Source: a virus. From it: a stretch of DNA of 23,003 nucleotides. The DNA is taken from positions 1 to 23,003 of IMG/VR virus record IMGVR_UViG_3300025949_000095. One strand, written 5' to 3'. The notes beneath the pieces are model-generated. The model saw only the letters and a program-made list of their open reading frames with translations, ran no database searches and was not told where the DNA came from. Below, piece by piece: positions 2,451-22,951 of this stretch (within the stretch, counting starts at the first letter, position 1; each line of letters starts with the position of its first letter). Position numbers and translations under genes: made by a program.

Positions 2451-2488
2451 TCGCCTGAAATTCAATGTGGACAAAAGTGGACAAGTGT

Positions 2489-8150: not shown

Positions 8151-8153
8151 GTC

Positions 8154-8432
8154 ATGAATTATGCACATTTTGCTGAGTACGTCCGCAACATCGAGGATGA
8201 CCTCGTGAAGTTTGGCGTGCCGGCGAGTGAGGCCGCCAACATTGCGACGTACATCGAGGCCGCCGCCGTGAGTGCCGAAGCGAAGCAGCGCAAAGAGGAT
8301 CAGATGCGTCTTGATTTCCGCACGCACGAAGTCTCCGATCTGGCGAAGCGACACAACGTCACCGACCGCACCATCCGAACATGGAAGGCGAGGCTATTCG
8401 AGAATCCAGCACTGCGCAAAGTAGGAACATAG
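8154..8432 (+). CDS. Mor/gp49-like regulator ending in TAG
   Basis: A 92-residue protein. MNYAHFAEYVRNIEDDLVKF and GVPASEAANIATYIEAAAVS are followed by a C-terminal helix-turn-helix (SDLAKRHNVTDRTIRTWKAR). It resembles Mor/gp49-like phage transcription factors, so it may activate later genes. Its stop is TAG (8430-8432), the only gene in the window that clearly ends this way. Read as glutamine, translation would continue 31 more residues to a TGA at 8526-8528, over the next ribosome-binding site and start. That extension is Cys/Ser-rich and does not look like protein, so I treat TAG as a genuine stop here. Confidence 0.7.
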   Translation: MNYAHFAEYVRNIEDDLVKFGVPASEAANIATYIEAAAVSAEAKQRKEDQMRLDFRTHEVSDLAKRHNVTDRTIRTWKARLFENPALRKVGT

Positions 8433-8493
8433 CTTCCGGCCCAGCTTCCATTTTGCGTTAGATCATGCCGCCAATCCTCAGAGGGTCGGTGTA

Positions 8494-9267
8494 ATGGCGG
8501 ATCAGACGATTGCAAGCAAACAGGATGAGTTTCAGCAGTGGCACGAAGAGTGGCTGAACACTGACGCCGACCCGCGTCAAGCAACTGCGCGGGGTGGCAT
8601 GATGAACGTCCTCCCCGAGAATGACGGCGAGCGCGGCGATATTTTGCTCGCCACCTGTCTTTTGGATTACTTCCCCAATGCCTGCGCCGCCGTGGCCCGC
8701 CATAGCGCGAAGAGCAACGCAAAACACAACCCCGGCCAGCCACCTCACTGGGCGCGCGACAAGTCCACCGACCACCGCAACAAGATCGCGCGACACCTGA
8801 TCGACGCTGGCGGATTCGACAAGGACGGCAACCGGCATAGCGTCGCGATTGCATGGCGCGGTCTGGCGCTGCTTGAGGATGAGCTGATCGCGGAGGGCGC
8901 GGTGCCTGGGCGTAATGCTGTGGGGTCGCCATCAAGCAAAGCCGCATTAGCCGAGCTGGTCGCCGAAAGTCAGCGGCTTGGGCTGTATGACGACGGCATC
9001 CCTGCCGAATCCGCCTATCTCGCAAGCTTCGCGCCGAACGCTGACATTCCCGAAAAGTCGCCGCTCGCCGGCAGCCGCATTGCCACGCCTGCCGAACTTG
9101 CATATCTGCTACACGCAAACGAGCCGCACCGCGCGCCCGATCTGCGCAAGTGCGGCATCGGAGATGTTGCAGAAACTGCAACGACTGTTGCCTCGCAACA
9201 CCCCGCGCATGCCGAGGCTATCCGCATCCACGACGAGCGGCTTAACGGGCCGGAGGATCATCTGTGA
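8494..9267 (+). CDS. dATP/dGTP diphosphohydrolase N-terminal (DUF5664) family protein
   Basis: A 257-residue protein. The central part, HWARDKSTDHRNKIARHLID followed by GFDKDGNRHSVAIAWRGLAL and LEDELI, is the pattern I associate with DUF5664, named as the N-terminal domain of dATP/dGTP diphosphohydrolase. This may trim purine dNTP pools. The C-terminal 120 residues are Ala/Glu-rich and unrecognised. The GAGGGT ribosome-binding site is well placed, and the stop overlaps the next GTG. Evidence for catalysis is weak because MazG-type metal motifs are not obvious. Confidence 0.55.
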   Translation: MADQTIASKQDEFQQWHEEWLNTDADPRQATARGGMMNVLPENDGERGDILLATCLLDYFPNACAAVARHSAKSNAKHNPGQPPHWARDKSTDHRNKIARHLIDAGGFDKDGNRHSVAIAWRGLALLEDELIAEGAVPGRNAVGSPSSKAALAELVAESQRLGLYDDGIPAESAYLASFAPNADIPEKSPLAGSRIATPAELAYLLHANEPHRAPDLRKCGIGDVAETATTVASQHPAHAEAIRIHDERLNGPEDHL

Positions 9268-9452
9268 GCGAGTCCAAATCAAGTAGCGGCGGTATCGGAT
9301 TCGCCGGCCTGCTGACCGTGCTGTTCATCGGCCTGAAACTGACCGGCGCCATCACATGGAGCTGGTGGTGGGTCTTGTCGCCGCTATGGCTGGGCTACGC
9401 CATTGTGCTGCTTATCGTGGCGGTCTGGCTGTTTGTGGCGGCGCTGTCATGA
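9264..9452 (+). CDS. Small membrane protein, Fragile-X-F (TMEM185)-like
   Basis: A 62-residue protein starting at GTG 9264 (overlapping the preceding TGA). Two hydrophobic segments, about residues 12-29 and 36-61, are separated by TGAITWSWWWVLSPLW. This WSWWWVLSPLW motif is typical of phage and bacterial small proteins annotated as transmembrane Fragile-X-F. It is predicted to lie in the inner membrane; function is unknown. It is far from the lysis cassette, so a holin role is unlikely but not excluded. Confidence 0.75.
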   Translation: MSESKSSSGGIGFAGLLTVLFIGLKLTGAITWSWWWVLSPLWLGYAIVLLIVAVWLFVAALS

Positions 9453-9889
9453 GCGCTAGGAAGGAAGACGCTTTGCGCCGTAATCCTGAATACGTGTACC
9501 AAAAAACTAAGCGTTGGCGTGAAGCAAACCCAGAGATGGCACGGGCGCAACGGAAGCGAAATTACGCCTCGCGTTGCGACAGGTATCGAGCTGACCCGGC
9601 CAAGTATCTTTGGAGGACTGCGCGAACCCGGGCCAAAGCAACCGGAGTCAAATTCGATATTGATCCATCTGACATATCCATACCGGACTATTGCCCGATC
9701 ACTGGCGAAAAAATAGACGTCCTTGTCAGCAATTACCAGAACGGAGCGTCGGTTGATCGTGTTGTTAACTCCCTTGGTTATGTCAAGGGCAACGTGCGCG
9801 TTATCTCGCGCAAGGCCAATCGAATGAAGGGGGACGCGACCATTGGCGACCTTCTTCGCATGGTTGCATACATGAGGGGCGAGATATGA
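9449..9889 (+). CDS. HNH-like endonuclease
   Basis: A 146-residue protein from ATG 9449 (ATGA overlap). The N-terminal 70 residues are very basic (KTKRWREANPEMARAQRKRN) and likely bind DNA. The C-terminal part has CPITGEKIDVL, SVDRVVNSLGYVKGNVRVIS and RKANRMKGDATIGDLLRMV. This layout, a Cys-containing knuckle, Asp-Arg, Gly-Tyr, Asn-Val and Ala-Asn-x-x-Lys, is known from HNH/endonuclease VII-like phage proteins. Codon use looks a little less GC-rich than its neighbours, so it may be a recent insertion (a free-standing homing nuclease). Confidence 0.7.
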   Translation: MSARKEDALRRNPEYVYQKTKRWREANPEMARAQRKRNYASRCDRYRADPAKYLWRTARTRAKATGVKFDIDPSDISIPDYCPITGEKIDVLVSNYQNGASVDRVVNSLGYVKGNVRVISRKANRMKGDATIGDLLRMVAYMRGEI

Positions 9890-10842
9890 CGGCGGCCAAG
9901 CGCGAAGTGGCGGCTATGCTTACCGACGGCATTAGCCAGCGGGAGATTAGCAGGCGCACAGGGGTATCCCGCAAAACGATTTATAGGTGGGCCAATGAAA
10001 TACCCAAGCCTGACTCGGCTCCGCGCAGACATTTTGTTTTGCCCGACACCCAATGCAAGCCGGGCGAGCCGATGGATCATCTGCGCTGGATCGGTAAGGC
10101 GATTCGCGACTACAAGCCCGACGTGGTGATTCACATCGGCGACCATTACGACTTCCCAAGCCTGTCCACGCATTCCGCTCCCGAGTCCGGTGCAATGGAA
10201 GGGTTGCGTTACGAGGACGACCTGAAAGCCGGTAATGATGGCCTACGCATCCTGCACAAAGCGATGGGCGTCTGGCATGGTCGGAAGATTCTGTTGCGGG
10301 GTAACCACGAGAACCGCCTGACGCGCTATATCGACCGCAACCCGAAGCTTGCTGGCGCGATGGGCTTCCACCAGTTCGCCGATAAGTCGCTAGGCTGGGA
10401 AGTGGTCGATTACTACTGCGGGTCGCCCGGCCAGATCGTGGTCGATGGCGTTATCTACGCCCATTACTTCGCGGCAGTGAATACGGGCCGCGCTATCGGC
10501 GGCACGGCCAACAACAAGCTCAATCACGTAGGCCGGTCATTCGTGCAAGGCCATGTGCAGGGCTATGAGGTCGGGACGAAGCAGTACGCCACTGGCGTAG
10601 TCCGCAAGGGCATCGTTGCCGGCTCTGCTTACCTGCACGACGAAGATTACAAGGGCATGGCTAACTCGCACTGGCGCGGCGTCGTCGTGCTGAACGAAGT
10701 CAGCGACGGGCAGTTCTGCGAGATGCCATTAACGCTGGACTATCTCTGCCGCAAATACGAGGGCATGAGCGTAGCCCGATACCTTCGCGAGCATTACGAA
10801 AACGCCGAGCAGCGGTTTTGCTTGGCTAGGAGTGTGGCATGA
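9886..10842 (+). CDS. HTH-metallophosphoesterase fusion
   Basis: A 318-residue protein. Residues 1-40 are a resolvase-type helix-turn-helix (GISQREISRRTGVSRKTIYR). From residue 48 it is a calcineurin-like phosphoesterase: FVLPDTQC, HIGDHYD (GDxxD), LLRGNHENRLTR (GNHE) and a late QGHVQG in place of the usual GHxH. These residues build the two-metal centre. The substrate could be nucleotides, nucleic acid or protein phosphate; the sequence does not decide. It overlaps both neighbours by ATGA. The HTH fusion suggests action at DNA. Confidence 0.85.
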   Translation: MTAAKREVAAMLTDGISQREISRRTGVSRKTIYRWANEIPKPDSAPRRHFVLPDTQCKPGEPMDHLRWIGKAIRDYKPDVVIHIGDHYDFPSLSTHSAPESGAMEGLRYEDDLKAGNDGLRILHKAMGVWHGRKILLRGNHENRLTRYIDRNPKLAGAMGFHQFADKSLGWEVVDYYCGSPGQIVVDGVIYAHYFAAVNTGRAIGGTANNKLNHVGRSFVQGHVQGYEVGTKQYATGVVRKGIVAGSAYLHDEDYKGMANSHWRGVVVLNEVSDGQFCEMPLTLDYLCRKYEGMSVARYLREHYENAEQRFCLARSVA

Positions 10843-11204
10843 GCTTGTTTACCAAGAAGGCTAAGGTTGAGCGCGTCATAGAGCGGACCATTGAAAAGGA
10901 GGTCATTGTCGAAAAGGAGGTCATTAAGTATCTGCTCGGCAACGCCGAAAGGGTTGTGGTGTATCGGGCATTCAAAGAGGAGACGAGAGTCTTTGTTGTT
11001 GGTTTCGCGATCGCTCCGCATACAACCGCTACGGAGCTTGGCTATTACCACTCATGTGCCCAAGCCTTTGCAGAGAATCCAGGCTGCAAAGTTGAGACTC
11101 GATCCCTATGGAAGATTGGTGACAAATTTGTCAAAAGCCTGAATGTAGTGCCGGTCAATATCAAGATCGAGCCAAAGCCTAAGCGCGGCAAAGGAAAGGC
11201 ATGA
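10839..11204 (+). CDS. Hypothetical protein with N-terminal Glu/Lys/Val coiled coil
   Basis: A 121-residue protein. Residues 5-30 repeat a charged KVERVIERTIEKEVIVEKEV pattern that is probably a short coiled coil. The rest has beta-like stretches (RVFVVGFAIAPHTTATELGY) and a basic KPKPKRGKGKA-like tail. No family recognised. The base composition is more AT-rich than its neighbours. It is coupled by ATGA to both adjoining genes. Confidence 0.65.
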   Translation: MSLFTKKAKVERVIERTIEKEVIVEKEVIKYLLGNAERVVVYRAFKEETRVFVVGFAIAPHTTATELGYYHSCAQAFAENPGCKVETRSLWKIGDKFVKSLNVVPVNIKIEPKPKRGKGKA

Positions 11205-11419
11205 AAGGCAAGCGCATATTCCTTGAGTCTCCGAAACACAGCGGCTCCTACGTGCGCGTGACCGTCGATGAGGACACGGGCTATTTGGAGATGAAGCTAT
11301 CCGACTGTGATCGCCGCATCTGGTGGATTTTTGGCAAGCCCGGGGATAAGCGCGCCGTCAGGAAGATCAAACTACTCAAGGCGATTGTCGATGAAGTCCA
11401 TGGGCACTTAGTCAAATGA
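11201..11419 (+). CDS. Hypothetical small protein
   Basis: A 72-residue protein, MKGKRIFLESPKHSGSYVRV, containing LEMKLSDCDRRIWWIFGKPG and a basic helix at the end. No family recognised. Four-base overlaps with both neighbours support translation. It is probably soluble and mixed alpha/beta. Confidence 0.6.
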   Translation: MKGKRIFLESPKHSGSYVRVTVDEDTGYLEMKLSDCDRRIWWIFGKPGDKRAVRKIKLLKAIVDEVHGHLVK

Positions 11420-11910
11420 GTGCCCTGCAACCCTTTGTGGCTCCTGATGTGGCCCAACGCTTCGCCACCACCGAACTAACCGACGAGTGCGTAGACGCAG
11501 CCAACCGCACAGCTCCTATGTTCGATTCCGCGTATCCCGGATGGCAACTCTATAGCCGCATTGTTCGCGGTGACACAGTGTTCGACCGCCAGCTGACCGC
11601 CTGGGCTATCGGATGCGCTCGCGCCTTCGCGCGGGCAAAGAAGCTAAACGGGCAGGGCGTAGTAGCTCCGCGTGGCCGACGCAATGATTGGATAGCTCAG
11701 GCTGGCGTTGACGCATTGGAGTTCGTCATCAATGGCAAGTACGACGAGTCAGCCCATGTTGCCGCTGGACGGCTTGCTGTCTGGACACCGAAATACCGCA
11801 AGGTACGCGGCTCGATCACGGCGATGATGCTTGACGGATTCGCCAACTATCAATCCGAACTTCACTACCAATACATGCGCGTTATGCGCGAAAACCGGAG
11901 AATCGCATGA
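11416..11910 (+). CDS. Hypothetical protein, possible late regulator
   Basis: A 164-residue, Ala/Arg-rich, mostly helical protein with AWAIGCARAFARAKKLNGQG, WIAQAGVDALEFVINGKYDE and RVMRENRRIA at the end. It is near the distal end of the early operon, about 0.7 kb before the tRNA/lysis region, where lambdoid phages keep the antiterminator Q. I see no zinc motif or other signature to prove this, so the role is position-based speculation. It overlaps both neighbours by ATGA. Confidence 0.55.
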   Translation: MSALQPFVAPDVAQRFATTELTDECVDAANRTAPMFDSAYPGWQLYSRIVRGDTVFDRQLTAWAIGCARAFARAKKLNGQGVVAPRGRRNDWIAQAGVDALEFVINGKYDESAHVAAGRLAVWTPKYRKVRGSITAMMLDGFANYQSELHYQYMRVMRENRRIA

Positions 11911-12187
11911 ATAACCAGATGAACGCTGCTGGCGCCGTGCCACGGCAAGCGCCTTATGACGAGGCCCGCGACCAGTTGGCTAATGAGCAGGCGAGGTCAG
12001 ATAGCCTTGTGACAGATCTGTATAGCCGGCTTAACCGGGCGCTTGACCCAATTGGCCTTGCGGTGGCACCGCATGTGATCCTGTGCCAGAGCGCGCCGAG
12101 ATTTGCCACAGTATGTACTCGGCTTTGTCAGTACAGCGAAGGCTTAATGAACAGCTTCAAGACATTCTTATCCGTCTCGTTCTCTGA
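11907..12187 (+). pseudogene. Small early protein gene with a probable -1 frameshift
   Basis: ATG 11907 overlaps the previous TGA, and the first 45-50 codons look coding (PYDEARDQLANEQARSDSLV, then TDLYSRLNRALDPI). After about 12047-12061, coding character moves to another frame. That frame reads GGTACDPVPERAEICHSMYS, then ALSVQRRLNEQLQDILIRLV and L before TGA at 12185-12187. In the original frame the continuation (to 12212) is Cys/Ser/Phe-rich and unconvincing. A -1 shift or one missing base would restore a roughly 93-residue, mostly helical protein. Function is unknown. Confidence 0.6.
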
Positions 12188-12626
12188 CTGCGACAATCGC
12201 CAAATCCCATGATGCAATGGGCTATGGCGGCCAACCGCCACTCATTTTGCCGCCCAGCCTCTACCGAAATCTCCCGAAGCCTCGCAAGGCCGGCAAGCTT
12301 GAACAGGGCGGCGATTCACATGCCCGCTCGGGACAATCATACGGCGCAGCATCACACCAGCGCCGGATTATCCCGAGCGGTAACAGTTTGGGGATGCATC
12401 AAATCCGATCACGTTTAGCTGACGTGGTGAGGTCGGGAGGCCCGTTACGCGCCGCAACCTCGAAACCCGGATGCAGCAGGGCTAGGCCGGCCCGTTCCCC
12501 CAATCAATCTGACCGTCCATGTGGCGGCACAGTAACAGAGGCGCTATGCGCTTCCAGTGGGGATCGTCGTGAGACGCCCAATGCCTGCCGGTGGGGCAAG
12601 ACCCCGGCCCGAATTTTGGAGGTTAC
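12188..12626 (+). other. Poorly coding stretch between early operon and tRNA/late region
   Basis: About 440 bases without a convincing intact gene. It holds a possible frameshifted gene (12217-12512, separate entry) and a GC-rich stretch at 12575-12612 with a GGGG-CAAGA-CCCC hairpin just before the ribosome-binding site of the 12627 gene. It lies where lambdoid phages place the late promoter, but I could not identify a clear -35/-10 pair. Confidence 0.4.
12217..12512 (+). pseudogene. Possible frameshifted gene containing one TAG
   Basis: From ATG 12217 the frame reads MGYGGQPPLILPPSLYRNLP, KPRKAGKLEQGGDSHARSGQ and, by about 12423, RSRLADVV. Near 12430-12440 a -1 shift leads into GRPVTRRNLETRMQQG, then TAG at 12483-12485, then AGPFPQSI and TGA at 12510-12512. 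With TAG as Gln, the C-terminus looks protein-like. The start has no good ribosome-binding site, and the unshifted frame (to 12672) becomes low-quality. This is a suggestion only. Confidence 0.3.
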
Positions 12627-12863
12627 ATGCATTACCGCAACGGCCGCGAGGCCAAGAACGGCGACAAGATAGTCAGGTTGGAAGGCGGCAAGGTTGTGGC
12701 TTTTGGCGTGCTTCATGGCGCCGTTCCCGGAAACGATTTCTGCAACGGCAGCATCGCTGTCGTGCAGTCGGCGAATGAGTACGCGTGCATGTGCGATTGC
12801 TTGCACATCGATGATGTGGCCGAGATGCTGGCAGATAAGGGCCTCAACAAACGCCCCGCATAA
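12627..12863 (+). CDS. Small phage protein of unknown function (MHYRNGREAK type)
   Basis: A 78-residue protein starting MHYRNGREAKNGDKIVRLEG, with VVAFGVLHGAVPGNDFCNGS and CMCDCLHIDDVAEMLADKGL. The TTGGAGG ribosome-binding site fixes ATG 12627 over the longer frame at 12591. I recognise the N-x-R-E-A-K-x-G-D and Cys-Leu-His patterns from small phage proteins often found near lysis genes; the function is unknown. It ends with TAA nine bases before the tRNA-Thr gene. Confidence 0.75.
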   Translation: MHYRNGREAKNGDKIVRLEGGKVVAFGVLHGAVPGNDFCNGSIAVVQSANEYACMCDCLHIDDVAEMLADKGLNKRPA

Positions 12864-12872
12864 CCCCAACAC

Positions 12873-12948
12873 GCCGGATTAGCTCAGACGGTAGAGCAGT
12901 CCCTTTGTACGGCACAGGTCGTGGGTTCGACTCCTGCATCCGGCTCCA
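12873..12948 (+). tRNA. tRNA-Thr (TGT)
   Basis: A seven-pair acceptor GCCGGAT/ATCCGGC, a D-arm with GCTC/GAGC and a T-arm with loop TTCGACT. The anticodon loop TTTGTAC gives TGT (12906-12908), which reads ACA. The anticodon stem has one C-C mismatch (12901/12913). The 3' end is T-CCA, encoded. TTGTA matches bacterial tRNA-Thr loops. Confidence 0.85.
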
Positions 12949-12953
12949 ATTAC

Positions 12954-13040
12954 GGAAGGTTCCGCTAGGTTGGCTGGCAATCCGGTTTGAACCCGGAGGG
13001 ACTGGAAACGGTAGGGGTTCGACTCCTCAGCCTTCCGCCA
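12954..13040 (+). tRNA. tRNA-Ser (TGA)
   Basis: A class II tRNA: acceptor GGAAGGT/GCCTTCC, a perfect five-pair anticodon stem TCCGG/CCGGA, loop TTTGAAC with anticodon TGA (12988-12990; decodes UCA). It has a long variable arm with ACTG-GAAA-CGGT, T-loop TTCGACT, discriminator G and encoded CCA. The long arm and G73 fit serine. It follows tRNA-Thr by five bases. Confidence 0.85.
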
Positions 13041-13056
13041 CTTCAACGAGGCAGCC

Positions 13057-13332
13057 ATGACCGACGAACCCGAGGGCAGCGCAGAGCCTGAAATCGAGTT
13101 CGTGGTTGACGGCGACTCGCGCTCCGAAGTCTACGAATGGGATTCGCCCAGCGGCAAAGGCGGCACATATATCTTCCCGTCCGGCGTCGAGGCATGGGCC
13201 GAAACTAACGGCGTGGAGTTGGTGCATATCGACAAGACCACGGGCGTTATCACGGTCCAGCACGAGCTAGGCGCGCCATTTCGGCAGATAGACAAGTCGC
13301 TGAACACGGGCGCGGTTAAGCCGATCAAATGA
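13057..13332 (+). CDS. Hypothetical late protein
   Basis: A 91-residue acidic protein starting MTDEPEGSAEPEIEFVVDGD, with GGTYIFPSGVEAWAETNGVE and ITVQHELGAPFRQIDKSL. It is the first protein gene after the two tRNAs. Its stop overlaps the endolysin ATG (ATGA), so it belongs to the lysis transcript. It has no signal peptide or membrane helix. No family recognised. Confidence 0.6.
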   Translation: MTDEPEGSAEPEIEFVVDGDSRSEVYEWDSPSGKGGTYIFPSGVEAWAETNGVELVHIDKTTGVITVQHELGAPFRQIDKSLNTGAVKPIK

Positions 13333-13769
13333 ACATCTCACCCATTGGCCTCGACCTCATTAAGCGTTTTGAAGGGTTGAAGCTTGCGGCGTACCCCGAT
13401 CCAGGCACGGGTGCCGAACCCTACACCATCGGTTACGGCCATACGGGCGGCGTGAAGCCATTGGACACATGCACGCTTGCTCAGGCTCAGGCTTGGTTGC
13501 AAAGCGATGTGCGGGGCATTGTCCGCGCCCTAGCTGACATGATTTCAGTTCCTGTAACGCAGGGGCAGTTCGATGCCTGCGTGTCACTCGCCTACAACAT
13601 TGGCGTTTCGGCGTTTCGCGGATCGACCCTGCTGCGCCAGTTGAACGTGAGCAAGTATCAAGCGGCGGCGGACGAGTTTCCGCGCTGGAATAAGTCCGGC
13701 GGAAAGGTTCTGCCGGGATTGGTGGATAGACGGGCAGCAGAATGCGCCTTGTTTTTGGGAGAGGCGTGA
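13329..13769 (+). CDS. Endolysin, GH24 lysozyme (muramidase)
   Basis: A 146-residue protein of the T4/P22 lysozyme family, the usual length for a single-domain endolysin. Catalytic Glu15 lies in LIKRFEGLKLAAYPDPG, Asp24 in the same stretch and Thr33 in YTIGYGHT, matching the Glu-Asp-Thr triad. GQFDACVSLAYNIGVSAF and LPGLVDRRAAECALFL complete the fold. It cleaves the beta-1,4 bond between MurNAc and GlcNAc in peptidoglycan. There is no clear signal-anchor sequence, so release probably needs a holin. It overlaps both neighbours by ATGA/TGATG. Confidence 0.95.
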   Translation: MNISPIGLDLIKRFEGLKLAAYPDPGTGAEPYTIGYGHTGGVKPLDTCTLAQAQAWLQSDVRGIVRALADMISVPVTQGQFDACVSLAYNIGVSAFRGSTLLRQLNVSKYQAAADEFPRWNKSGGKVLPGLVDRRAAECALFLGEA

Positions 13770-14101
13770 TGATTGACTGGACTGCGGTAGGTGGTGGCGC
13801 CGGCATGCTGCTGACCGGCATTCTCGGCTGGTTCACGGGCAAGGGGCGGCGTGACGTATCGACAGCGCAGGACAACGCGCAGATATCGGATTACCGCGCC
13901 GATCAAGCCACTACCGATGCCGCAGCCGCACAAGTCACTGCGCTGATTGGTCGCGTGACAGCCCTTGAATCCAGTCATGCCGATCTGTGGCAGCGATTGC
14001 AGGACGAGGTGACGAAGCGCATGAAGCTCCAATTCCGCGTGCTGCAGCTCGAAGGCGTGTTGCAGGCACACAGCATCGAAGTCCCGCCCGAACAGCCATG
14101 A
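13769..14101 (+). CDS. Membrane-anchored coiled-coil protein, possible holin partner
   Basis: A 110-residue protein from ATG 13769 (TGATG overlap with the endolysin stop). Residues 5-24 (TAVGGGAGMLLTGILGWFTG) form one membrane segment. The rest is soluble and strongly helical, with heptad-like runs (AAAAQVTALIGRVTALESSH and VTKRMKLQFRVLQLEGVLQA). One membrane helix plus a coiled coil next to an endolysin could be a single-span holin, an antiholin or another lysis protein. No family is certain. Confidence 0.65.
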   Translation: MIDWTAVGGGAGMLLTGILGWFTGKGRRDVSTAQDNAQISDYRADQATTDAAAAQVTALIGRVTALESSHADLWQRLQDEVTKRMKLQFRVLQLEGVLQAHSIEVPPEQP

Positions 14102-14172
14102 GCCTGCACGACCGTCTCTACTTGCTGGCGTGCGAGGTCTACATGTTCGCTTGCGTGTCACGGATCATCTAA
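14098..14172 (+). CDS. 24-residue hydrophobic small protein
   Basis: ATG 14098 overlaps the previous TGA. It encodes MSLHDRLYLLACEVYMFACV plus SRII and ends with TAA. The hydrophobic centre could insert in a membrane. The four-base coupling and placement among lysis genes favour a real gene, but the size gives little statistical support. Function is unknown. Confidence 0.4.
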   Translation: MSLHDRLYLLACEVYMFACVSRII

Positions 14173-14175
14173 CCC

Positions 14176-14805
14176 ATGCGCATCCTCGCCGCCCTGCTAT
14201 GTGTAGGGCTGGCAGGATGTATCCATGTGGATACGGCGCGTGAAACCGCAGTCCGCCTCCAATTCTCCAACGGGTCGTGTAGTGGCACGATTGTCGGGCC
14301 TCATGCCGTCCTGAGCGCGACGCATTGTTTCAGCTTCGGCGAGACGTTGCGGCTATGGCAACAGCCAGTGCGCATCCTGCAACAGATTGATGACGGTAAC
14401 GACCACACCATCATCATCGTGGATCGGAACTTTCCGGTATGGGTGGTCGTCGGCCACATGCCCAAAGTGGGCAGTCCCATACACATCTTGGGTAACCCGG
14501 GCGACCTGACCGAACTGTACCGGCATGGCTATGTTGCTGGCGTCGAGGGCGTAGGCGGCAAGCTGTGCGACCTGTACGACCTTCGCGGGTGGTTCGGGGA
14601 CTCCGGAGCAGGGATCTTCGATGATAACGGCCACCTGATTGGCGTCATCAGCCTCATTTACACGTTAGACGATGGACGCGGGCAGCTCACGATGATGGGC
14701 GGCTTCCCGCTGGCATTCACAGCCGAACAGTGGGGCGAGGCATTACGGGGTTCTCCGCGTAACTTTGCAATCGGCGCTCAAAACTATCAGGTCAGCGCGA
14801 AATGA
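14176..14805 (+). CDS. Secreted trypsin-like serine protease lipoprotein
   Basis: A 209-residue protein with a lipoprotein signal (hydrophobic residues 3-13, lipobox LAGC, Cys15). A chymotrypsin-fold protease follows: His50 in VLSATHC, Asp76 or Asp83 as the acid, and Ser143 in GWFGDSGAG. The paired cysteines C35/C51 flank the His loop as in trypsins. The export signal puts it in the periplasm, attached to a membrane. It lies between the endolysin and the spanins, so it may attack envelope proteins during lysis, process a virion protein or alter the lysogen surface. The role is inferred from position. Confidence 0.8.
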   Translation: MRILAALLCVGLAGCIHVDTARETAVRLQFSNGSCSGTIVGPHAVLSATHCFSFGETLRLWQQPVRILQQIDDGNDHTIIIVDRNFPVWVVVGHMPKVGSPIHILGNPGDLTELYRHGYVAGVEGVGGKLCDLYDLRGWFGDSGAGIFDDNGHLIGVISLIYTLDDGRGQLTMMGGFPLAFTAEQWGEALRGSPRNFAIGAQNYQVSAK

Positions 14806-15095
14806 GCTTCCTTCTGCGCTGGTGGAAGCCTATAGCCGTGATCCTTATGGCTGCCGGCCTCTACTTCGGCGGCATGTACCAAGGCCACCACGGCGAGGTA
14901 CAGCGCCAAGCCGTCAAGCACTCCAAGCAAGTCGTTAGGGATCAAAAGGCCGTAACCAAGCGTGCCGAGGTTCGCAGTCATGTTGAGCAGGACACATAGA
15001 AGTTACCCGACGCGCCTATTCAGCGCATTGGGGATGCTGATCCTGTTACCGCTGCTGGCAAGTTGCGCGCTTGGGCAAGAGACAAAGCCAAGTAA
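14802..15095 (+). CDS. Rz: Inner-membrane spanin (Rz) with an in-frame TAG
   Basis: Starts at ATG 14802 with a membrane anchor (KPIAVILMAAGLYFGGMY) and a periplasmic charged helix (VQRQAVKHSKQVVRDQKAVT). Codon 66 is TAG (14997-14999). Read as Gln, it continues QKLPDAPIQRIGDADP and a 15-residue end to TAA at 15093-15095, giving 97 residues; the QKLPDAPIQRIGDADP type of ending is typical of phage inner spanins. Without read-through the protein has 65 residues and loses the C-terminal part expected to reach the outer spanin. So completion of lysis should need the amber-decoding tRNA at 15413. The gene overlaps the protease stop and contains the start of the outer spanin. Confidence 0.85.
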
Positions 15096-15219
15096 TGGGT
15101 GTGAGTGGGTTAAGCCGATCTATCCGAGTGTGAACGACCAGCTCACGGATGGCACGGCTAAACAGATCCTCGATCACGACGAAACCGGCAAGACCATATG
15201 CGGGTGGAAACAGCCATGA
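14980..15219 (+). CDS. Rz1: Outer-membrane spanin lipoprotein (Rz1)
   Basis: A 79-residue frame embedded in another frame of the inner spanin gene, the classic Rz/Rz1 layout. It has a hydrophobic signal (SALGMLILLPLLASC) with lipobox LLASC and Cys29, then a mature domain EWVKPIYPSVNDQLTDGTAK and a conserved-looking ICGWKQP end. I choose ATG 14980 over 14962 because it leaves a compact signal peptide. It has no TAG. The base that makes the inner-spanin TAG (14997) is a silent third position here (His CAT). It ends overlapping the next ATG. Confidence 0.85.
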   Translation: MLSRTHRSYPTRLFSALGMLILLPLLASCALGQETKPSNGCEWVKPIYPSVNDQLTDGTAKQILDHDETGKTICGWKQP

Positions 15220-15344
15220 CCCTATTGCACATCATCGCCGCGCTGATCTTCATTTCCGGCCTAGTCTCGCTCGGTGCGCTGATCTGGCTGCGCGAGAGTG
15301 ACGAGCTGATTCAACCGACTGTGCCGAAAGACCGTGAACGGTAA
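15216..15344 (+). CDS. 42-residue single-span membrane protein
   Basis: ATG 15216 overlaps the outer spanin TGA. The protein has one strong hydrophobic segment (LLHIIAALIFISGLVSLGAL), then WLRESDEL and a charged tail ending in TAA. Its position after the spanins makes a holin or antiholin possible. No family recognised. Confidence 0.6.
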   Translation: MTLLHIIAALIFISGLVSLGALIWLRESDELIQPTVPKDRER

Positions 15345-15555
15345 GGGATCGGCCCCACGCCCATTCAGCGTGGATCAGGCGACATTCGCCAGCAACTGGG
15401 ACGCAATCTTTTCGGGGAGTGGCGTAATGGGCAGCGCGGCGGACTCTAACTCCGCAGGTTCCGGCTCGGCTCCGGACTCCCCCGCCATCTATATCGACGC
15501 CGACACTGGCGAATAGGTCACTGAAGACTGGTGGCCCGGCGATTCGCATGACTGA
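15334..15555 (+). CDS. Small late protein overlapping the suppressor tRNA; contains TAG
   Basis: GTG 15334 begins MNGKGSAPRPFSVDQATFAS followed by NWDAIF, the pattern of small phage proteins beginning GKGSxPRPxSV. Codons 27-51 run through the tRNA gene and give only Gly/Ser/Ala-rich sequence. Then YIDADTGE is followed by TAG (15514-15516). Read as Gln, it continues VTEDWWPGDSHD to TGA at 15553-15555, overlapping the next ATG. The tRNA spans exactly 75 bases, so it could be an in-frame insertion into this gene. tRNA processing would cut this mRNA. Whether the protein is made is uncertain. Confidence 0.45.
15413..15487 (+). tRNA. Amber-decoding suppressor tRNA (CTA), glutamine-type
   Basis: The acceptor 2-7/66-71 is GGGGAG/CTCCCC with an open C1-C72 position. 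The D-stem is GCGT/GCGC, the anticodon stem GCGGA/TCCGC, the loop CTCTAAC with anticodon CTA at 15446-15448, and the T-stem TCCGG/CCGGA. G73 and CCA are encoded. CTA pairs with UAG. An unpaired 1-72 position, G2-C71, G3-C70, G73, G10, U35 and A37 are features GlnRS recognises, so charging with glutamine is likely. The T-loop CTCGGCT is unusual (C54, G58). It lies just upstream of the terminase and capsid genes, which carry in-frame TAG codons. Confidence 0.9.
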
Positions 15556-15751
15556 CGATGAGCTGACTGATCAAGCGGCTGCCAATCTGATCCGCTGCTA
15601 CGTGAAGCAGAGTATCATGGCGATGCTGGTCCGGACGCGCGGGACAGAGGTAAGCATCGTCTGCCCGAACGGTGACAAGACATTCATGGCCGCATTGCTT
15701 CGAGCTGCGGCTAAATCGCTGGATGAGCCGGCGAGTAAGAGAATCAACTGA
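15548..15751 (+). CDS. Hypothetical late protein before terminase
   Basis: A 67-residue protein (MTDDELTDQAAANLIRCYVK, then VRTRGTEVSIVCPNGDKTFM and a helical end). ATG 15548 overlaps the TGA that ends the 15334 frame when TAG is read through. This supports that the upstream gene really ends at 15555. No family recognised; no TAG inside. Confidence 0.6.
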   Translation: MTDDELTDQAAANLIRCYVKQSIMAMLVRTRGTEVSIVCPNGDKTFMAALLRAAAKSLDEPASKRIN

Positions 15752-15784
15752 AGGGTGACGCGAGAGCAGCCCGAGGAATGAGAT

Positions 15785-16138
15785 ATGGGAAGGCCAACCG
15801 ACTATCGGGAGGAATACTGCGATACCGTCATTGAGCTTGGCAGGCAGGGCAAGAGCCATTGCTAGATTGCTGCCGAACTTGATGTGGCACGGCAGACTCT
15901 GCACAACTGGGCTAGTGAACATCCTGAATTTTTGGACGCAATCACGCGAGCAAGGGACTTGGCTCAAGCGTGGTTCGAGAACATGGGCCAGTCTGGCCTT
16001 GTCATGCCGGGTTTCAACGCCTCGCTGTGGGCCAAGCAGGTGAGCTGCCGATTCCGCGACGACTACACGGACAAGCAACAGACGGAACACTCTGGAACGT
16101 TGACCGGCTTGACGGTGACCTTTGTCGCGCCCGAGTAA
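15785..16138 (+). CDS. terS: Terminase small subunit, one in-frame TAG
   Basis: ATG 15785 follows a GAGGAA ribosome-binding site. The protein begins MGRPTDYREEYCDTVIELGR, and codon 27 is TAG (15863-15865). Read as Gln it gives HCQIAAELDVARQTLHNWAS, a complete helix-turn-helix, then DAITRARDLAQAWFENMGQS and FNASLWAKQVSCRFRDDYTD, ending at TAA. This is the usual DNA-recognition subunit that selects phage DNA for packaging, here 117 residues. Without suppression only 26 residues are made, with no start codon soon after for a usable restart. Its end overlaps the large subunit start. Confidence 0.9.
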
Positions 16139-17381
16139 AGCCATCGAGTTCCCGGCCAAGCTCCAATGCCTATTTGGTCCGCAACGCTATACCGTGCTTC
16201 ACGGTGGCCGAGGTGGCGCCAAGTCATGGGGCGTGGCCCGGTCCTACCTGATCCGAGGCGCGCAGTCTAAGCGTCGTTTCCTGTGCACTCGCGAAGTGCA
16301 GAAGTCAATCCGCGATTCGGTGCACAAGTTGCTAAGTGACTAGATCCAGGCGCTTGAACTTGGTGCGTTCTACGAGGTGCAGTAGAACATCATCAAAGGG
16401 GCCAACGGGACCGAGTTCCTATTCTCCGGCCTGAGCGATCAGACCGCGGAGTCGATTAAGTCGTTTGAAGGCGTCGATGATGTGTGGATCGAAGAGGCCC
16501 AGGCTGTCAGCAAGCGCTCATGGGACATTCTTATCCCGACGATCCGCAAGGCCGGGTCTCGCATCACGGTCACGCTGAACCCCGAGTTGGACACGGACGA
16601 AACCTATGTCCGGTTCATCGAGAACCCGCCACCGGATTCCGTGGTGGTGAAGATCAACTATGCGGACAATCCGTGGTTCCCCGAAGTATTGGAGGCTGAG
16701 CGGCTGCATGCGCTCGCCACGATGCCTCGCGTGGACTACGACAACATCTGGGAGGGCCTGTGCAAGCCCGCCGTCACTGGCGCGATCTATGCCGATGAGA
16801 TTGCCAAGGCGCAGGAAGAGGGCCGTATTGGCCTGTTCCCGTATGACCCAGCACTCAAGGTTCACGTCATCTTCGACTTGGGCTGGAACGACAAGATGGC
16901 GATTGGCTTGTGCCAGCGCCACATCTCGTCCCTGCGCCTGATCGAGTACATCGAGGTTGATCACAAAACGCTGGACTGGTGTTCTGCCGAGCTGAAGCAA
17001 AAGAACCTCAATTGGGGCCGTCTCTGGCTGCCGCACGATGGCGCGCACGGCGACTACAAGACCGGCAAGAGTGCCGAGCAGATCATGCGTGAGCTAGGCT
17101 GGGATGTGGGCATTGTGCCGATCCAGCCGGTCGAGACGGGCATCAAGGCGGCCCGCATGGCGTTCGGTCAGCTCTACATCAACAAGACTAAGTGTGAGCG
17201 CCTGATCCAGTGCCTGAAGCGCTATAAGCGCGGCGTTCCCGTCTCCACTGGCGAGCCGGGCGCTCCGGTCCACGACGAGTGGAGCCACGGTGCCGATATG
17301 TTCCGATACATGGCCTCAACGGCGCCAAAGATGGTTAACGAAGATATGCGTCCGATTTCCTATCACAGGCTTACCCGCTAA
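16122..17381 (+). CDS. terL: Terminase large subunit, two in-frame TAG codons
   Basis: The packaging ATPase-nuclease. Start: a TGA lies at 16116-16118 and the first usable start is TTG 16122, overlapping the small subunit, so I accept it with caution. Walker A is GGRGGAKS (28-35). TAG is codon 74 (16341) and codon 88 (16383), in SD-Q-IQALELGAFYEVQ-Q-NII, where glutamine fits. Walker B/catalytic is DDVWIEEA (119-126), and TVTLNPELDTDETYV is the coupling motif. The nuclease part has VIFDLGWNDK (Asp about 252) and the C-terminal HDEWSHGADMFRYMA. About 419 residues, normal for this family. Ends TAATG with the portal. Confidence 0.93.
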
Positions 17382-19588
17382 TGGCATACACGTCCAACAA
17401 GGCGTCGATCAAGCACGAGAAGATGACGGACGATGTTATCGAGCTTGCCTGCCGCAACGCGCTGGACAACAGCATGGGTGGGCCGGGCACTGAGATTGCC
17501 TAGCTGCGGCTGCGCAATTTGGAGTACTACAACGCCGAACCCACTGGCGAGCTTGCGCCGCCTGAGATTGACGACCGCAGCGACTTCGTGGCCACGGACG
17601 TTGCCGATACCGTCGAGGCGATGCTGCCGCAGATCATGAAGCCGTTCGTTACGGATGATGAAGCAGTGGAGTTCCAGGCGCGCCGCCCCGGTTCTGAGCC
17701 TGTCGCATAGCTCGCCACGGCCTACGTGAATTACCTGTTCTACACCAAGAACGACGGTGTAGGCGTCATGTACGACTGGTTCAAGGATGCGCTGATTCAG
17801 AAGGTCGGCTTCGTCAAGGTATGGGCTGAGGAGGAATTCGAAGATATTCAGACCGCCTATTCCGGCATCACGCAGGAACAGGTGGTGATGCTGCAGCAAT
17901 AGGGCTGGGAGCTTGACGGCGAACCGCAGCAGGAAGAGCCGCAGGCCATGCCGCAGCAGTTCGGGCCAGACGGGCAGCCAATGCCGCAGCCGCCCGCCAT
18001 TCCGACGCTCACGGTCAGCCTGAAGAAAGAAGACAAGCGCATGGCGGTGAAGGTCGCCGCCTGCGCGCCGCACGAAGTCCGTGTGGACGCCAATGCGCGC
18101 TGGGGCGATGAGCCGGCGATGATTGCCCACGTCTACCCGCGCCGGAAGTTTGAGCTTGAAGAGGAAGGCTATGACCTGTCCGATATTGGCCAGTCCGGCA
18201 ACGATTCGCGGTACGACAGCGAGACGCTTGCATAGCTTGGGCTGAATGCCGATTACACGGCAGTAGAGCCGCACGAAAGCCATAAGCTGTACCAGTGCAG
18301 CGAGGTCTACATCAAGCTCGACGCGGACGGTGACGGCATTGCCGAATGGCTGTGCTGCCACATGATCGAGCAGAAGCTGGTGGAGTGGGAGAAGTGCGAC
18401 GGGCATCCGTTCGTGTGGATCTGCCCCATTCCTCGTCCGCATGCGTTCTTCGGCGATTGCCCGGCCGACATGGCGCTGCAGCCTCAGAAGCTGCGCACGA
18501 ACGTCATCCGCGCCATCCAAGACAACATGATGCTGTCCGTCAACCAGCGGACCTACATCAATCTTGATGCCGGCGTGAACATGGACGACTGGCTGGAAAA
18601 CCGGCCCGGTGGTGCGGTTCGCGGTCACGGCCCGGCGAATACCGCGATCCAGCCCATTGTGCAGCCTGCGTTGGGCGCTCCAGCCTACGAATTCAACGAA
18701 TGGTTGGAAGGTTGGAAGGAAAATCGCACCGGCTTCACGCGCTACTCGCAGGGCATGGACTCCGACAGCCTCAACAAGACGGCGACCGGCGTCAGCATCA
18801 TCACGCAGAAAGCCGACATGCGCATGGAGCTGATGGCGCGCATGTTCGCGGTCGGCATGAAGGGGTTGTTTAGCAAGATGCTGAAACTCGCTGTCCAGTT
18901 CCAGGACAAGGCCGAGATGATGCAGGTGAATGGGTCATGGGTCGCCGTGAACCCGTCCGAATGGAAGGATCAATTCAACACGACAATCAAGGTCGGTCTT
19001 GGCACGGGCAGCAAGGAGCAGCTTGCCGCTCGCGTCATGGGCCTGATGCAGGTTCAGATGCAGGCTGCACAGTTTGGCGTCGTCACGCCCGCGCAGATTG
19101 CCGAGACCGTCAAGTTGTACGTGCAGGCTGCCGAGTTCAAGGAGCCTGAGCGCTTCGTGAGTCCTGAGCCAACCGGCATGCCCCCGAACCCGCAAGCCTT
19201 CCAGCAGATGCAGCAGCAGCAGCAGCAGCAGATGGAGCAGGCGAAACAGCAGTTGGAGCAGTTGAGCCAGGAGAACGGACAGCTCAAGCAGTAGACGGCC
19301 CAGCAGCAGCAGGACGCATCGCTGAAACAGATGGAGTTGGAGCAAAAGGCCCGCGCCGCCGAGGACAAGCACGCCGAGACGCTGGCGAGCATTAGCCTCA
19401 AGCAGTAGGACCAAGACCGCAAGGCGCATGAATCGCACATGGCCGGCGTCGAGACGGCTCACAGCATGGCGCACAAGGACATCGACGCGCAGCAGAACCA
19501 ACAGATTGCCAGCTTGCAGCAGCAGTTGGATGAACTAAAGGCTGCGATGGGTTAGGGCGAAGCCAACGAGGAGGAGGGCGGCGAGTGA
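17381..19588 (+). CDS. Portal protein (P22/podovirus type), seven in-frame TAG codons
   Basis: A 735-residue protein when TAG is read as Gln at 17501, 17708, 17900, 18233, 19292, 19406 and 19553. It contains ADTVEAMLPQIMKPF, LYQCSEVYIKLDADGDGIAE, PRPHAFFGDCPADMALQPQK, FTRYSQGMDSDSLNKTATGV and MRMELMARMFAVGMKGLFSK, which I recognise from podoviral portals. It forms the dodecameric vertex ring through which DNA enters. The C-terminal 110 residues are Gln-rich coiled coil (19190-19550), encoded by CAG runs, with three of the TAG codons among them. The start overlaps the terminase TAA; the stop TGA overlaps the next GTG. Confidence 0.93.
19201..19240 (+). repeat. CAG-rich tract in the portal C-terminus
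   Basis: An uneven CAG triplet run encodes QQMQQQQQQQMEQ. CAG differs from TAG by one C-to-T change. The tract is a likely coiled-coil or flexible tail and could vary in length. Confidence 0.85.
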
Positions 19589-19866
19589 CCCCACAAGAAG
19601 AACTTGAACGCGGCCAACTTGCCGCCGACGTGCTGTCCAATCGCGTCTACGTCGAGACGATGGCGCAGATTCGGGACGAAATCCTCGCCCGCTGGCAGAT
19701 CGAGGCCGACGAGGCGAAGCGTGATCATCTGTGGCGCATGATCCAGTGCCACAAGCGTCTGGGCGACGTGCTGGAACAGACGATGATTACCGGAAAGATG
19801 CAGCAGAAGGCCATCCAGGCCGAGCAATCCCGCGCTGAACGGCTCAAGGGCGTGTTTCAGCGGTAA
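19585..19866 (+). CDS. Hypothetical head-region protein
   Basis: A 93-residue protein from GTG 19585 (GTGA overlap with the portal stop). It is almost wholly helical and charged: MTPQEELERGQLAADVLSNR, then QIRDEILARWQIEADEAKRD and LGDVLEQTMITGKMQQ. Similar small proteins lie between portal and scaffold genes in podoviruses; the function is unknown. It contains no TAG. Confidence 0.7.
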   Translation: MTPQEELERGQLAADVLSNRVYVETMAQIRDEILARWQIEADEAKRDHLWRMIQCHKRLGDVLEQTMITGKMQQKAIQAEQSRAERLKGVFQR

Positions 19867-20041
19867 ACGTTTTGCGGTGAATACGCAGGCTGATGCAAGG
19901 CTAACGCCGTCGTTGCAAGTAAAAGTACCTCGCCCATGTGACCGATTGGAGGGAGCCTGGGAAATGGGAAATTTCGCGACCCAATGTGCCGGGATCAGCT
20001 CCGGCCGCCGCAGATTCATTTCAACCACAGAGGCATAAAAC
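19867..20041 (+). other. 175-bp leader upstream of scaffold and capsid genes
   Basis: A gene-free gap inside a gene-dense late operon. It includes GGAGC (19952-19956) and GCTCC (19998-20002), which could pair around an AT-rich internal part, and a CCGG-bounded stretch (19989-20004). A GTG frame from 19938 runs into the scaffold gene in another frame and is not convincing. It may hold a promoter or a structured leader for high capsid output. No clear -35/-10 was found. Confidence 0.4.
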
Positions 20042-20977
20042 ATGGCAGGTGACGCAGCGATGCAGCCAGCCGATAGCGCAACGTCGCTCTCGGATCTTGG
20101 CGGATTTATCGACAAGTCCGAGGAAGTCGAGGGCGAGGAATCGGAAGAGGAGGAAGCGCCGGAAGGTGAGGAATCCGAGTAGGAAGAGGAAGAGGGCGAA
20201 GAGGGCGAGGACGAGGCCAAAGACGACGAAGGAGACGACTCCACCATTGTGCTGAAGCACGATGGCAAGGATGTGCCGCTGAAGAAGTCCGAGGTGATCG
20301 AGTTGGCCTAGAAGGGCTTCGACTACTCGCAGAAAACGATGGCTGTCGCGGAGGAACGCAAGCACGTCGAGGCGTTGCAGGCGCAAGCCGACGAGTACCG
20401 CCAGCACAACGAAAAGGCATTGACGGCGACCCTTGACCGTCTGAATGCATTCGCTCAGTTCACCGAGTCACAGATAGGCGCCCCGCCGCCTGTCGAACTG
20501 GCCTCGCAGGATGTGGGGCTGTACATCGCACAGAAGGAGCAATACGAAACACGCAAGGGCCAGTTACAGAGGGCGCACGAGGCCATCGCGAATGTTCAAC
20601 AGGAAGCGCAGCGGAAACGCCAAGCGTGGATTGCGGAACAGGCCGATGCCACCGAGAAGGCGCTGAGGGACACCCTGCCGGGTTTTGGTGAGAAGACAAT
20701 CGACGAATTGGCCGCGTACCTTGGCAAGGCTGGCATCAGCCCCAAGACCGCCGACGTCGGTTATGTGCAGAAGGGTTTGTGGGAGATTGCCGCGAAGGCA
20801 AAAGCCTATGACGAGTTGCAGGCCAAAACGGCCACGCTCAAGCCCGTTGCACAACTGCCCAAGGTGGCTAAGCCATCGGCGGCAAACCAGCCCAACAGGG
20901 CGGCTGTGAACAAGCAGGAGGCGTTCAAGCGCTTCGATGCCAAGCAGTCGCTTCAATCCCTCGGTAACTTGCTTTAA
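20042..20977 (+). CDS. Scaffold protein, two in-frame TAG codons
   Basis: A 311-residue protein with TAG at codon 47 (20180) and codon 90 (20309), both read as Gln. The first 75 residues are extremely acidic (EEVEGEESEEEEAPEGEESE). Then IVLKHDGKDVPLKKSEVIEL and KGFDYSQKTMAVAEERKHVE begin a long helical region. The end is basic (KRFDAKQSLQSLGNLL). Acidic start, coiled-coil body, basic end and position between portal and capsid are typical of procapsid scaffolds. Without suppression only 46 residues form. The spacer to the capsid ATG is nine bases, with an AAGGA ribosome-binding site. Confidence 0.85.
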
Positions 20978-20986
20978 GGAACAACC

Positions 20987-21955
20987 ATGACCGCGAATAC
21001 CCTGATTACCCCGTCCGTCGTCCGTGTGGCGGAGGATGTGGAAGACCGCATCTACAACTTCAATCCGTAGGATACCCCGCTCGTTAGCATGATCGACCGC
21101 ATCAAGGTGTCGAACGTGTTCCACGAGTGGACCCGCGACAGCTACCGCGCCCCGAGTGCATCGAATGCTGCAATCGAAGGCGCTGATGCCTCCTACGCCG
21201 CGCAGGTCCAGCCCGGCCCGTTGAACAACCGCACACAGATTTTCCAAGACACCTTGAGCGTGTCCAACACTGCCGAGACGGTCAAGAAGTACGGCCGTTC
21301 GTCCGAAATCAACCGCCTGAAAGCGAAGAAGATGGTTGAGCTGAGGCGCGATATCGAGGCGGCCGCCATCGGCAACGGCGCGTCTGTCACGGGCACCGGC
21401 AGCGTGGCCGGCCAGATGCGTGGCCTGTTCGGCTTCATCGCCACGAACGCCAGCGTTGGCGCCACCACGGGCGTTGCGCCGAACCCGGTAACCAATACCG
21501 CCCCGGTGGCGGGTACGGCTCGCGCTATCTCTGACGTGTTGGTCAAGGCGGCGGTTCTGGCTGCGTATACCAACGGCGGCAGCGGTAGTGTCCTACTGGT
21601 CTCGCCGGCACAGAAGCAGAAGGTCTCCGCGCTGACCGGCAACGTCACGCGGCAGCAGTAGGTTCCGTCTGATAAGGACGGCAATCTGGTGCTGAACACC
21701 GCCTTCACCTTCTACGGCCATGACTTCGGCAATACGAAGGTGGTTCCGGATCGCGTAATGGCGGCTGGTGGGGCTGGCTTGACGGCATCGGCCTACCTGA
21801 TCGACGGCGATAAGCTGGCCCTGGGCCAGCTGCGTCCGTTCGAGTCGGAGCAGCTGGCGACCACGGGCGATGCCAAGCAGTGGCAGATCCGCACCGAAGT
21901 CACGCTGGTGGTGCGTGATGAAAAGCCGCTCGCGTCGATCCTTGACCTGAGCTGA
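20987..21955 (+). CDS. Major capsid protein (SU10/DUF5309 type), two in-frame TAG codons
   Basis: A 322-residue protein with TAG at codon 28 (21068; RIYNFNP-Q-DTPLVSMI) and codon 225 (21659; GNVTRQQ-Q-VPSDKDG). FHEWTRDSYRAPSASNAAIE, VSNTAETVKKYGRSSEINRL and KMVELRRDIEAAAIGNGASV are hallmarks of the SU10/DUF5309 capsid family (HK97 fold). The end has DGDKLALGQLRPFESEQLAT and VTLVVRDEKPLASILDLS. Without amber read-through only 27 residues are made, so no capsid could form. Followed by a strong terminator-like hairpin at 21964. Confidence 0.95.
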
Positions 21956-21963
21956 TGAACCTT

Positions 21964-21997
21964 GGGGCCGGCTGGTATAGCGGCCCCTCTTTCTTTC
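21964..21997 (+). terminator. Rho-independent terminator after the major capsid gene
   Basis: GGGGCCG (21964-21970), a ten-base loop and CGGCCCC (21981-21987) form seven pairs, followed by the T-rich TCTTTCTTTC. It would limit transcription into the lower-copy head-completion genes. Confidence 0.85.
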
Positions 21998-22007
21998 GGA
22001 GGTTGGC

Positions 22008-22298
22008 ATGCGCGCACGGATTGAACAGATAGACGCCTTACATGAGGCACATATCTACGAAGCCAGCATGGACGACCTCCGCGCCGTGGCCGATCATTGC
22101 AAGGCGCGTTAGAGCGCTGGCGATACCGGCGATAGCGAAATGCGAGCACTGATGACGGTCCCAGCCATCATCGTGCAGCAGTACATGAACGAAAATGGCG
22201 TGTCGTATCCCGAGTTCATGCGCAACCCTGAGCATGCCCGCCGCATGATGAACGACCCAGCCCTATCCGCCTTCCGCATCCATCGGGGTCGCGTCTGA
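22008..22298 (+). CDS. Small head-region protein, one in-frame TAG
   Basis: A 96-residue protein from ATG 22008 (CGGAGG ribosome-binding site). MRARIEQIDALHEAHIYEAS precedes TAG at codon 35 (22110; ADHCKAR-Q-SAGDTGDS). Then PAIIVQQYMNENGVSYPEFM and RNPEHARRMMNDPALSAFRI. It ends with TGA overlapping the next ATG (TGATG). I do not recognise the family; position suggests a capsid-vertex or head-completion accessory. Without suppression a 34-residue fragment results. Confidence 0.75.
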
Positions 22299-22951
22299 TG
22301 CAGTTCTCGAACTACACCGACTTCCGCACCGCCGTGCTGAAGATGATCGACGGTGACGACACCAATGCTGGCGCCCTGAGCCAGTCTACGCTAGATCTGC
22401 TGATTGGCATGGGGGAGTAGGCGGTTTACTACGGCATGACGGGCGCGCGTGGTGAGACATTGCCGCCGCTGCGCTGCGCTGAAATGGAGTCGCCGCTAGC
22501 CATCACGGCTACCGGAAACATCGCCACGATCCCCGCTGACTGCCTTGAGCTGATCCGCGTGCAGGTATCGGGCGAATATCCGATGGACTACGCCGCCGAA
22601 GAGGGCCAGCTTCGCTAGCTGAAAGCTGGTGGTGGCTCGGGTGCGGCACGCAAGTACACGCAACAGGGATTGAGTCTGTTGTTCTTCCCCACGGTAACGG
22701 ATGGAACCGCCATCGCCGGCCGGTACTACAAAAAGGCGGCGGATATCTCGTCCGGCACGCTGAATGCCGCGTTCAACCGCTACCCCGACGTGTGGCTTTA
22801 CGCTGCGCTGGCTGAGTCAGCCCCGTTCATCGGCGAGGATGGCCGTTTGCCGCTGTGGAAGGCGCAATACGCAGGTCGGTTGATGGCTGCGCTTGCCAAT
22901 GAGCGCGCCCGCTTCACGCACGGATCGCGGCTGACCCAGGTTCCCCGGTGA
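22298..22951 (+). CDS. Head-tail adaptor-like protein, two in-frame TAG codons
   Basis: A 217-residue protein with TAG at codon 41 (22418; IGMGE-Q-AVYYGMTG) and codon 107 (22616; EGQLR-Q-LKAGGGSG), both natural as Gln. MQFSNYTDFRTAVLKMIDGD, IATIPADCLELIRVQVSGEY, IAGRYYKKAADISSGTLNAA and RYPDVWLYAALAESAPFIGE match the pattern of podoviral/SU10-type adaptor proteins that bind beneath the portal ring. It ends with TGA overlapping GTG of the next gene. Confidence 0.85.

Follow-up and report, generated by a model that had tools for sequence, protein, structure and literature searches.

Reassignment of the amber codon TAG to glutamine (genetic code 15) is known from gut phages, namely the crAss-like phages, the Lak phages, and the groups of Borges et al. 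2022, as cited in PMC9523058, PMC10607447, and PMC11210395. In gut phages, code 15 is found in the lytic genes together with a suppressor tRNA, as proteomics has shown for two of them (PMC9523058), so the general idea that phages use this code for lytic genes is already published. Recoding of the late or lytic genes of temperate phages was also proposed earlier by Borges et al. 2022, as cited in PMC10607447 and PMC10879173. In E. coli, a synthetic suppressor-tRNA "leak dampener" places the tRNA and its amber-bearing target under one promoter; it lowers the leak, and in an RF1-positive strain one to three ambers preserve the signal best (PMC7969014). Here we describe a virus record of 23,003 bases, IMGVR_UViG_3300025949_000095, a linear fragment called the window below, in which the late genes carry in-frame TAG codons and enclose a gene for a suppressor tRNA with the anticodon CUA. 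The original prediction had presented late-only recoding in a temperate phage as new, which the proposal of Borges et al. 2022, as relayed by the citing papers, precedes; it had also overlooked the suppressor tRNA (15413-15487).

In-frame TAG codons and the residue they encode

The late frames of the window, all on the plus strand, are read through TAG. Nine genes contain 19 internal TAG codons and no internal TAA or TGA, and an exact recount agreed with the original prediction in these numbers and in all coordinates. The Rz-like spanin gene (14802-15095; PHROG 1026, E 2e-4) has a TAG at 14997 and is overlapped by a TAG-free frame for an Rz1-like lipoprotein (14962-15219), recognized from the sequence. 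A small open reading frame (ORF) at 15334-15555, whose translation runs through KGSAPRPFSVDQATFASNWDAIF to DWWPGD, encloses the tRNA gene and has a single TAG at 15514. The terminase small subunit (15785-16138; PHROG 309, E 1e-26) has one TAG at 15863, and the large subunit (16122-17381, starting at TTG 16122 or GTG 16194) has two, at 16341 and 16383. Seven TAGs lie in the portal gene (17381-19588) at 17501, 17708, 17900, 18233, 19292, 19406, and 19553, the first of which is codon 41, the first glutamine (Gln) codon of the gene. A small late reading frame (19585-19866) is TAG-free. The scaffold gene (20042-20977; PHROG 3927, E 2.5e-24) has TAGs at 20180 and 20309, the gene of the major capsid protein (MCP; 20987-21955) at 21068, which is codon 28 and the first Gln codon, and at 21659, a late reading frame (22008-22298) at 22110, and the head-tail adaptor gene (22298-22951; SU10_adaptor, 65.8 bits) at 22418 and 22616. 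The read-through products align with their families near full length, with 576 bits for SU10_portal, 273 bits for SU10_MCP, and 123.6 bits for Terminase_3.

Read in the standard code these frames are broken, as would be expected if the TAGs were sequencing errors or the late genes were decaying pseudogenes of defective prophages. However, all 19 sites were recovered jointly in three other metagenome assemblies that match parts of the window at 99.8-100% identity, and because these independent assemblies carry TAG at every site, the codons are not sequencing errors. The interruptions are solely TAG, never TAA or TGA, and a relative of the window phage integrated in the isolate genome of Dyella sp. 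SG609 has the same TAG pattern, which leaves error or decay with a negligible probability.

The distribution of TAG is confined to late genes. Among the window reading frames, no internal TAG was found in the genes from 1 to 14805, as had been predicted, and the early gene at 8154-8432 on the plus strand even uses TAG as its terminal stop. The regulatory and early block (1483-12212), with a repressor, a replication initiator, a DnaB-like helicase, and others, is read in the standard code without internal TAG. On the late side, the plus-strand genes from 13329 to 14805 are also TAG-free, including the lysozyme gene (13329-13769), an ORF (13742-14101), and a protease-like gene (14176-14805; PHROG 9683) between lysozyme and spanin; therefore, the recoding begins at the spanin. 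The earlier claim that TAG is confined to lysis and virion genes holds for the virion genes, but "lysis" was too broad a term, as the spanin alone is recoded and the lysozyme is TAG-free.

At each TAG site, the residues of standard-code homologues were scored as log-odds, and the scores were summed. The window sites scored +12.7 for Gln and +3.0 for glutamate (Glu), and the sum over about 500 site observations from 23 phages, in which related phages overlap, was +338 for Gln and -207 for Glu, the next residue. Some TAG columns are nearly all Gln in the homologues, such as 16341, which is Gln in 113 standard-code homologues. It had been predicted that Gln suits every TAG; the sum clearly favors Gln, but homologues have other residues at 18233, 17900, 21068, and 21659. 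Taken over all sites, these comparisons strongly support the decoding of TAG as Gln.

The CUA tRNA and the phages that carry it

At 15413-15487 on the plus strand, ARAGORN locates a tRNA whose anticodon is CTA and whose CCA end is encoded; it matches the Rfam tRNA model with 49.9 bits (E 3.9e-08), and relatives have a tRNA in the same slot. The label "tRNA-Pyl" given by ARAGORN was rejected, as it derives from the CTA anticodon alone; with regard to pyrrolysine, the tRNA fits the ordinary tRNA family and the TAG sites score as Gln, with no search aimed at PylS. Single-sequence folding of the tRNA was uninformative (z 0.76). The acceptor of the window tRNA has an unpaired C1.C72, followed by G2-C71, G3-C70, and G73. 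Across 19 distinct CUA tRNAs, the 1-72 pair is always mismatched (C.C, C.U, U.C, C.A, or A.C), G2-C71 and G73 are invariant, and CCA is encoded. The tRNA-Gln genes of the Dyella host have U1-A72, G2-C71, and G73, and the identity elements of bacterial glutaminyl-tRNA synthetase (GlnRS) are G73, U1-A72, G2-C71, G3-C70, and U35 (PMC9976931). The elements of the CUA tRNAs fit putative charging by GlnRS, and the broken 1-72 pair may favor this enzyme, which is our own reading of PMC9976931.

Some of the phages have CUA tRNAs with a long variable arm (87-94 nt), and the length and shape of these tRNAs, typical of Ser, Leu, and Tyr tRNAs, could mean that another residue is inserted. Gln is nevertheless the top-scoring residue at the TAG sites of L010, L059, L016, L165, and L180, and the 1-72 mismatch and G73 are also present in the long-arm tRNAs, so we consider a different residue very improbable. 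The site scores reject it in every case except L126, in which His, Gln, and Arg score closely over six sites. A tRNA-Gln(TTG) lies beside the 94-nt CUA tRNA of L126.

In most relatives, the CUA tRNA starts 20-30 nt past the NW..IF motif of the small ORF, whatever the tRNA type; the exceptions are L161, L021/L023, L100/L101, L163, and G129, with another spacing or with no NW..IF motif found adjacent. The protein frame stays open across the tRNA gene and has a conserved DWWPG-like tail after the TAG, as seen in the window ORF and in L162, L165, and L161. Because the frame overlaps the tRNA gene, excision of the tRNA would destroy the mRNA of the small ORF, and the nesting possibly forms a self-limiting loop. 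ARAGORN found no tRNA in L018, L025/L083, and L161, but a structure search located CUA tRNAs with a short D-arm or an irregular or degenerate body at the expected place in these phages, and we rejected the notion that they are recoded without a tRNA. The CUA tRNAs of L006, L083, L018, and G129 are 71 nt long with a reduced D-arm, and standard tools overlook them or give them marginal scores.

Terminase and capsid scans yielded about 200 loci, a subset of which have TAG in the late genes, while TAA or TGA never interrupt them. About 25 distinct relatives combine late-only TAGs with a CUA tRNA at almost the same location; they are soil and rhizosphere contigs and two integrated prophages of Rhodanobacteraceae, the one in Dyella sp. 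SG609 and a second recoded prophage with a CUA tRNA in another genome of this family. Among contigs spanning the terminase large subunit gene and 1.5 kb upstream of it, 17 have both a CUA tRNA and late genes with TAG, 87 have neither, four have the tRNA and few TAGs, and three have TAG without the tRNA (Fisher p about 1e-13). The three, as counted, are L105, L135, and L155, and the MCP TAG of L135 is the terminal codon. As TAG-bearing late genes and the CUA tRNA co-occur, the TAG pattern does not arise by chance.

Some phages share a non-standard code with their host, and the late genes would be readable in a host whose own code assigns an amino acid to TAG. The genome of Dyella sp. SG609, which carries a relative of the window phage, is however that of a standard-code host, with RF1 and GlnRS present and no CUA tRNA among the 47 host tRNAs recovered. 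TAG also serves as a stop in the phage early genes and in the integrase gene of the Dyella prophage, and a recoded host is highly improbable. In complete relatives, the genes for regulation, replication, and integration can be read intact with the standard code, and almost every TAG lies in the stretch running from the lysis end through the tail genes, with up to 11 per gene. An integrase was found in seven of 10 relatives and was not found in the 23,003 bases of the window. The predicted repressor of a temperate phage was borne out by a repressor-like gene at 1595-2146 on the minus strand and by the chromosomal copies of two relatives, and the evidence likewise supports the restriction of TAG as Gln to the late genes of a temperate-type phage. 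No close annotated phage record was found, and the best match to the capsid has 47% identity.

Placement of TAG and its possible role in late expression

If TAG were a mere synonym for Gln, it should be placed randomly among the Gln codons, but the observed placement is non-random. The TAG share of Gln codons in seven phages is 0.23-0.37 within codons 1-50 versus 0.07-0.14 after them, with per-genome p values from 0.054 to 0.0004, and CAA is not enriched. The bias persists in nine phages (p 0.0106 to 6e-5 each) when the count is limited to codons that align with standard-code homologues. This count controls for over-long start calls as an origin of the N-terminal TAGs, the portal TAG at codon 3 of L021, which may precede the true start, lying outside the control. 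Of 17 recoded MCP sequences, 16 use TAG as the first Gln codon, which falls at codon 16, 21, 28, 42, or 73 depending on the lineage, and nearly all remaining Gln codons are CAG. The TAG at codon 16 is kept in all 10 relatives compared; their divergence at synonymous sites is large, with identical codons for about 60% of the identical residues. In two non-recoded relatives, this codon is CAG. L021 has a CUA tRNA and 10 TAGs in the tested late genes, all in the first 60 codons, and none among the 255 Gln codons further on. The N-terminal enrichment in every genome tested provides evidence, at the level of codon positions, that selection has shaped where TAG is placed.

Recoded and standard-code phages are intermixed on the MCP tree, which implies about nine state changes when L189 is counted as non-recoded; its label as a recoded phage came from unread bases and was rejected. 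The body of the CUA tRNA also varies widely, in 19 distinct forms. Because of the mixed capsid tree and the variable tRNA body, the trait appears to be old and repeatedly gained, lost, or exchanged. The original prediction had suggested a recent drift from CAG; the shared TAG16 of the MCP, the distinct tRNA forms, and the clustering of TAG near gene starts are evidence against a recent origin.

We consider it likely, judging from sequence, that the phage CUA tRNA decodes TAG as Gln and that the virion genes can be completed only with this tRNA, forming a feed-forward gate. In a silent prophage or early in infection, host RF1 would terminate at TAG, and leaky late mRNA would give only short fragments, mainly because the TAGs sit near the gene starts. 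With the onset of late transcription, the same region would provide both the tRNA and the mRNAs, presumably co-transcribed; host GlnRS would charge the CUA tRNA, the charged tRNA would compete with RF1, allowing full-length capsid, portal, terminase, and tail proteins to be made. Since late transcription would supply tRNA and mRNA together, full-length virion proteins would need both, as in a coherent feed-forward (AND) gate, and the benefit would probably be the blocking of leaky expression. With less confidence, we favor a natural amber lock, in which selection keeps TAG at or near the first Gln codon of the virion genes, above all of the MCP, and in which the lock would have come first, in an L021-like state, with general recoding after it.

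Several points weigh against such regulation. TAG makes up 7-14% of the Gln codons deep in genes, where a pure lock does not need it; some late genes, such as the frame at 19585-19866, are TAG-free; the spanin TAG lies ahead of the tRNA in the operon; and the per-genome placement tests share ancestry. The N-terminal bias would also be expected if failure of suppression were merely cheaper early than late in a gene, with fewer harmful fragments. Code 15 decoding could thus be real with TAG as a tolerated, non-regulatory synonym of CAG, a reading favored by the spread of TAG throughout long genes and by the many changes of recoding state on the MCP tree, as in a labile trait. But cost selection alone predicts that TAG is lost from the most highly made protein, and the MCP keeps one as its first Gln codon, at five independently placed sites with the other Gln codons nearly all CAG; the TAGs of L021 are almost solely N-terminal. 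Cheaper early failure accounts for the bias and not for the MCP retaining any amber, so we hold the non-regulatory reading to be rather unlikely and prefer the feed-forward gate.

Further features of the window lie outside the recoded genes. Similar-looking genes occupy the place of the protease-like gene in the Dyella prophage and in G129. A tRNA-Thr(TGT) at 12873-12948 and a tRNA-Ser(TGA) at 12954-13040, both on the plus strand, lie between the early and lysis genes; the same pair is present in L003, and L009 has Ser(GCT) and Ser(TGA). A gene resembling DNA cytosine methyltransferases is apparently split into two plus-strand frames (5765-6865 and 6645-7130), the second resembling the C-terminal part, by a frameshift, an error, or a programmed shift. 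An ORF at 2-583 on the minus strand (PHROG 4433) contains GAATASGYS repeats and runs off the end of the record.

Comparison with known recoding and suppressor systems

Like the code-15 gut phages, the window phage and its relatives use TAG as Gln mainly in structural and late genes, carry a phage CUA tRNA, and, in the case of the Dyella prophage, have a standard-code host; a role in controlling late genes and the switch between lysogeny and lysis was already proposed for the gut phages, as far as the citing papers report it. In contrast, the phages described here are about 40 kb in size and GC-rich, have SU10-type head genes, come from soil and rhizosphere, and are found integrated in Rhodanobacteraceae (Gammaproteobacteria); the tRNA is nested in a conserved small ORF, and the N-terminal and first-Gln placement of TAG was measured. 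They do not belong to the Crassvirales, as the portal, MCP, and adaptor are of the SU10 type and the prophages are found in Rhodanobacteraceae, not Bacteroidetes. With Borges et al. 2022 compared through the papers that cite it, the new elements are the lineage and the evidence of selected TAG placement. On the hitherto open question of whether phage stop-codon recoding reflects regulation or drift, the first-Gln TAG of the capsid genes and the N-terminal enrichment argue for regulation. The findings extend code 15 to Gammaproteobacterial soil prophages, in which none of the main virion genes is left whole by standard gene callers, and the prophage in a sequenced Dyella isolate makes the gate testable at the bench, if the strain is obtainable.

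The Zeta crAss-like phages also combine a suppressor tRNA with few TAGs, as L021-L024 do; however, the TAGs of the Zeta phages are rare with another stop close behind, while those of L021-L024 are found where essential late genes begin (PMC12386605). The theta ribozymes of gut phages (PMC10879173) are similar in that a suppressor tRNA governs late genes. Compared with the theta-ribozyme tRNAs, the CCA end is encoded here, and the Rfam scan of the window, run without a dedicated theta model, lists only tRNAs and no ribozyme match. In the synthetic leak dampener, the best number of ambers is near that of the capsid genes here, an analogy in working and not in kinship, and the phage system would be its natural counterpart.

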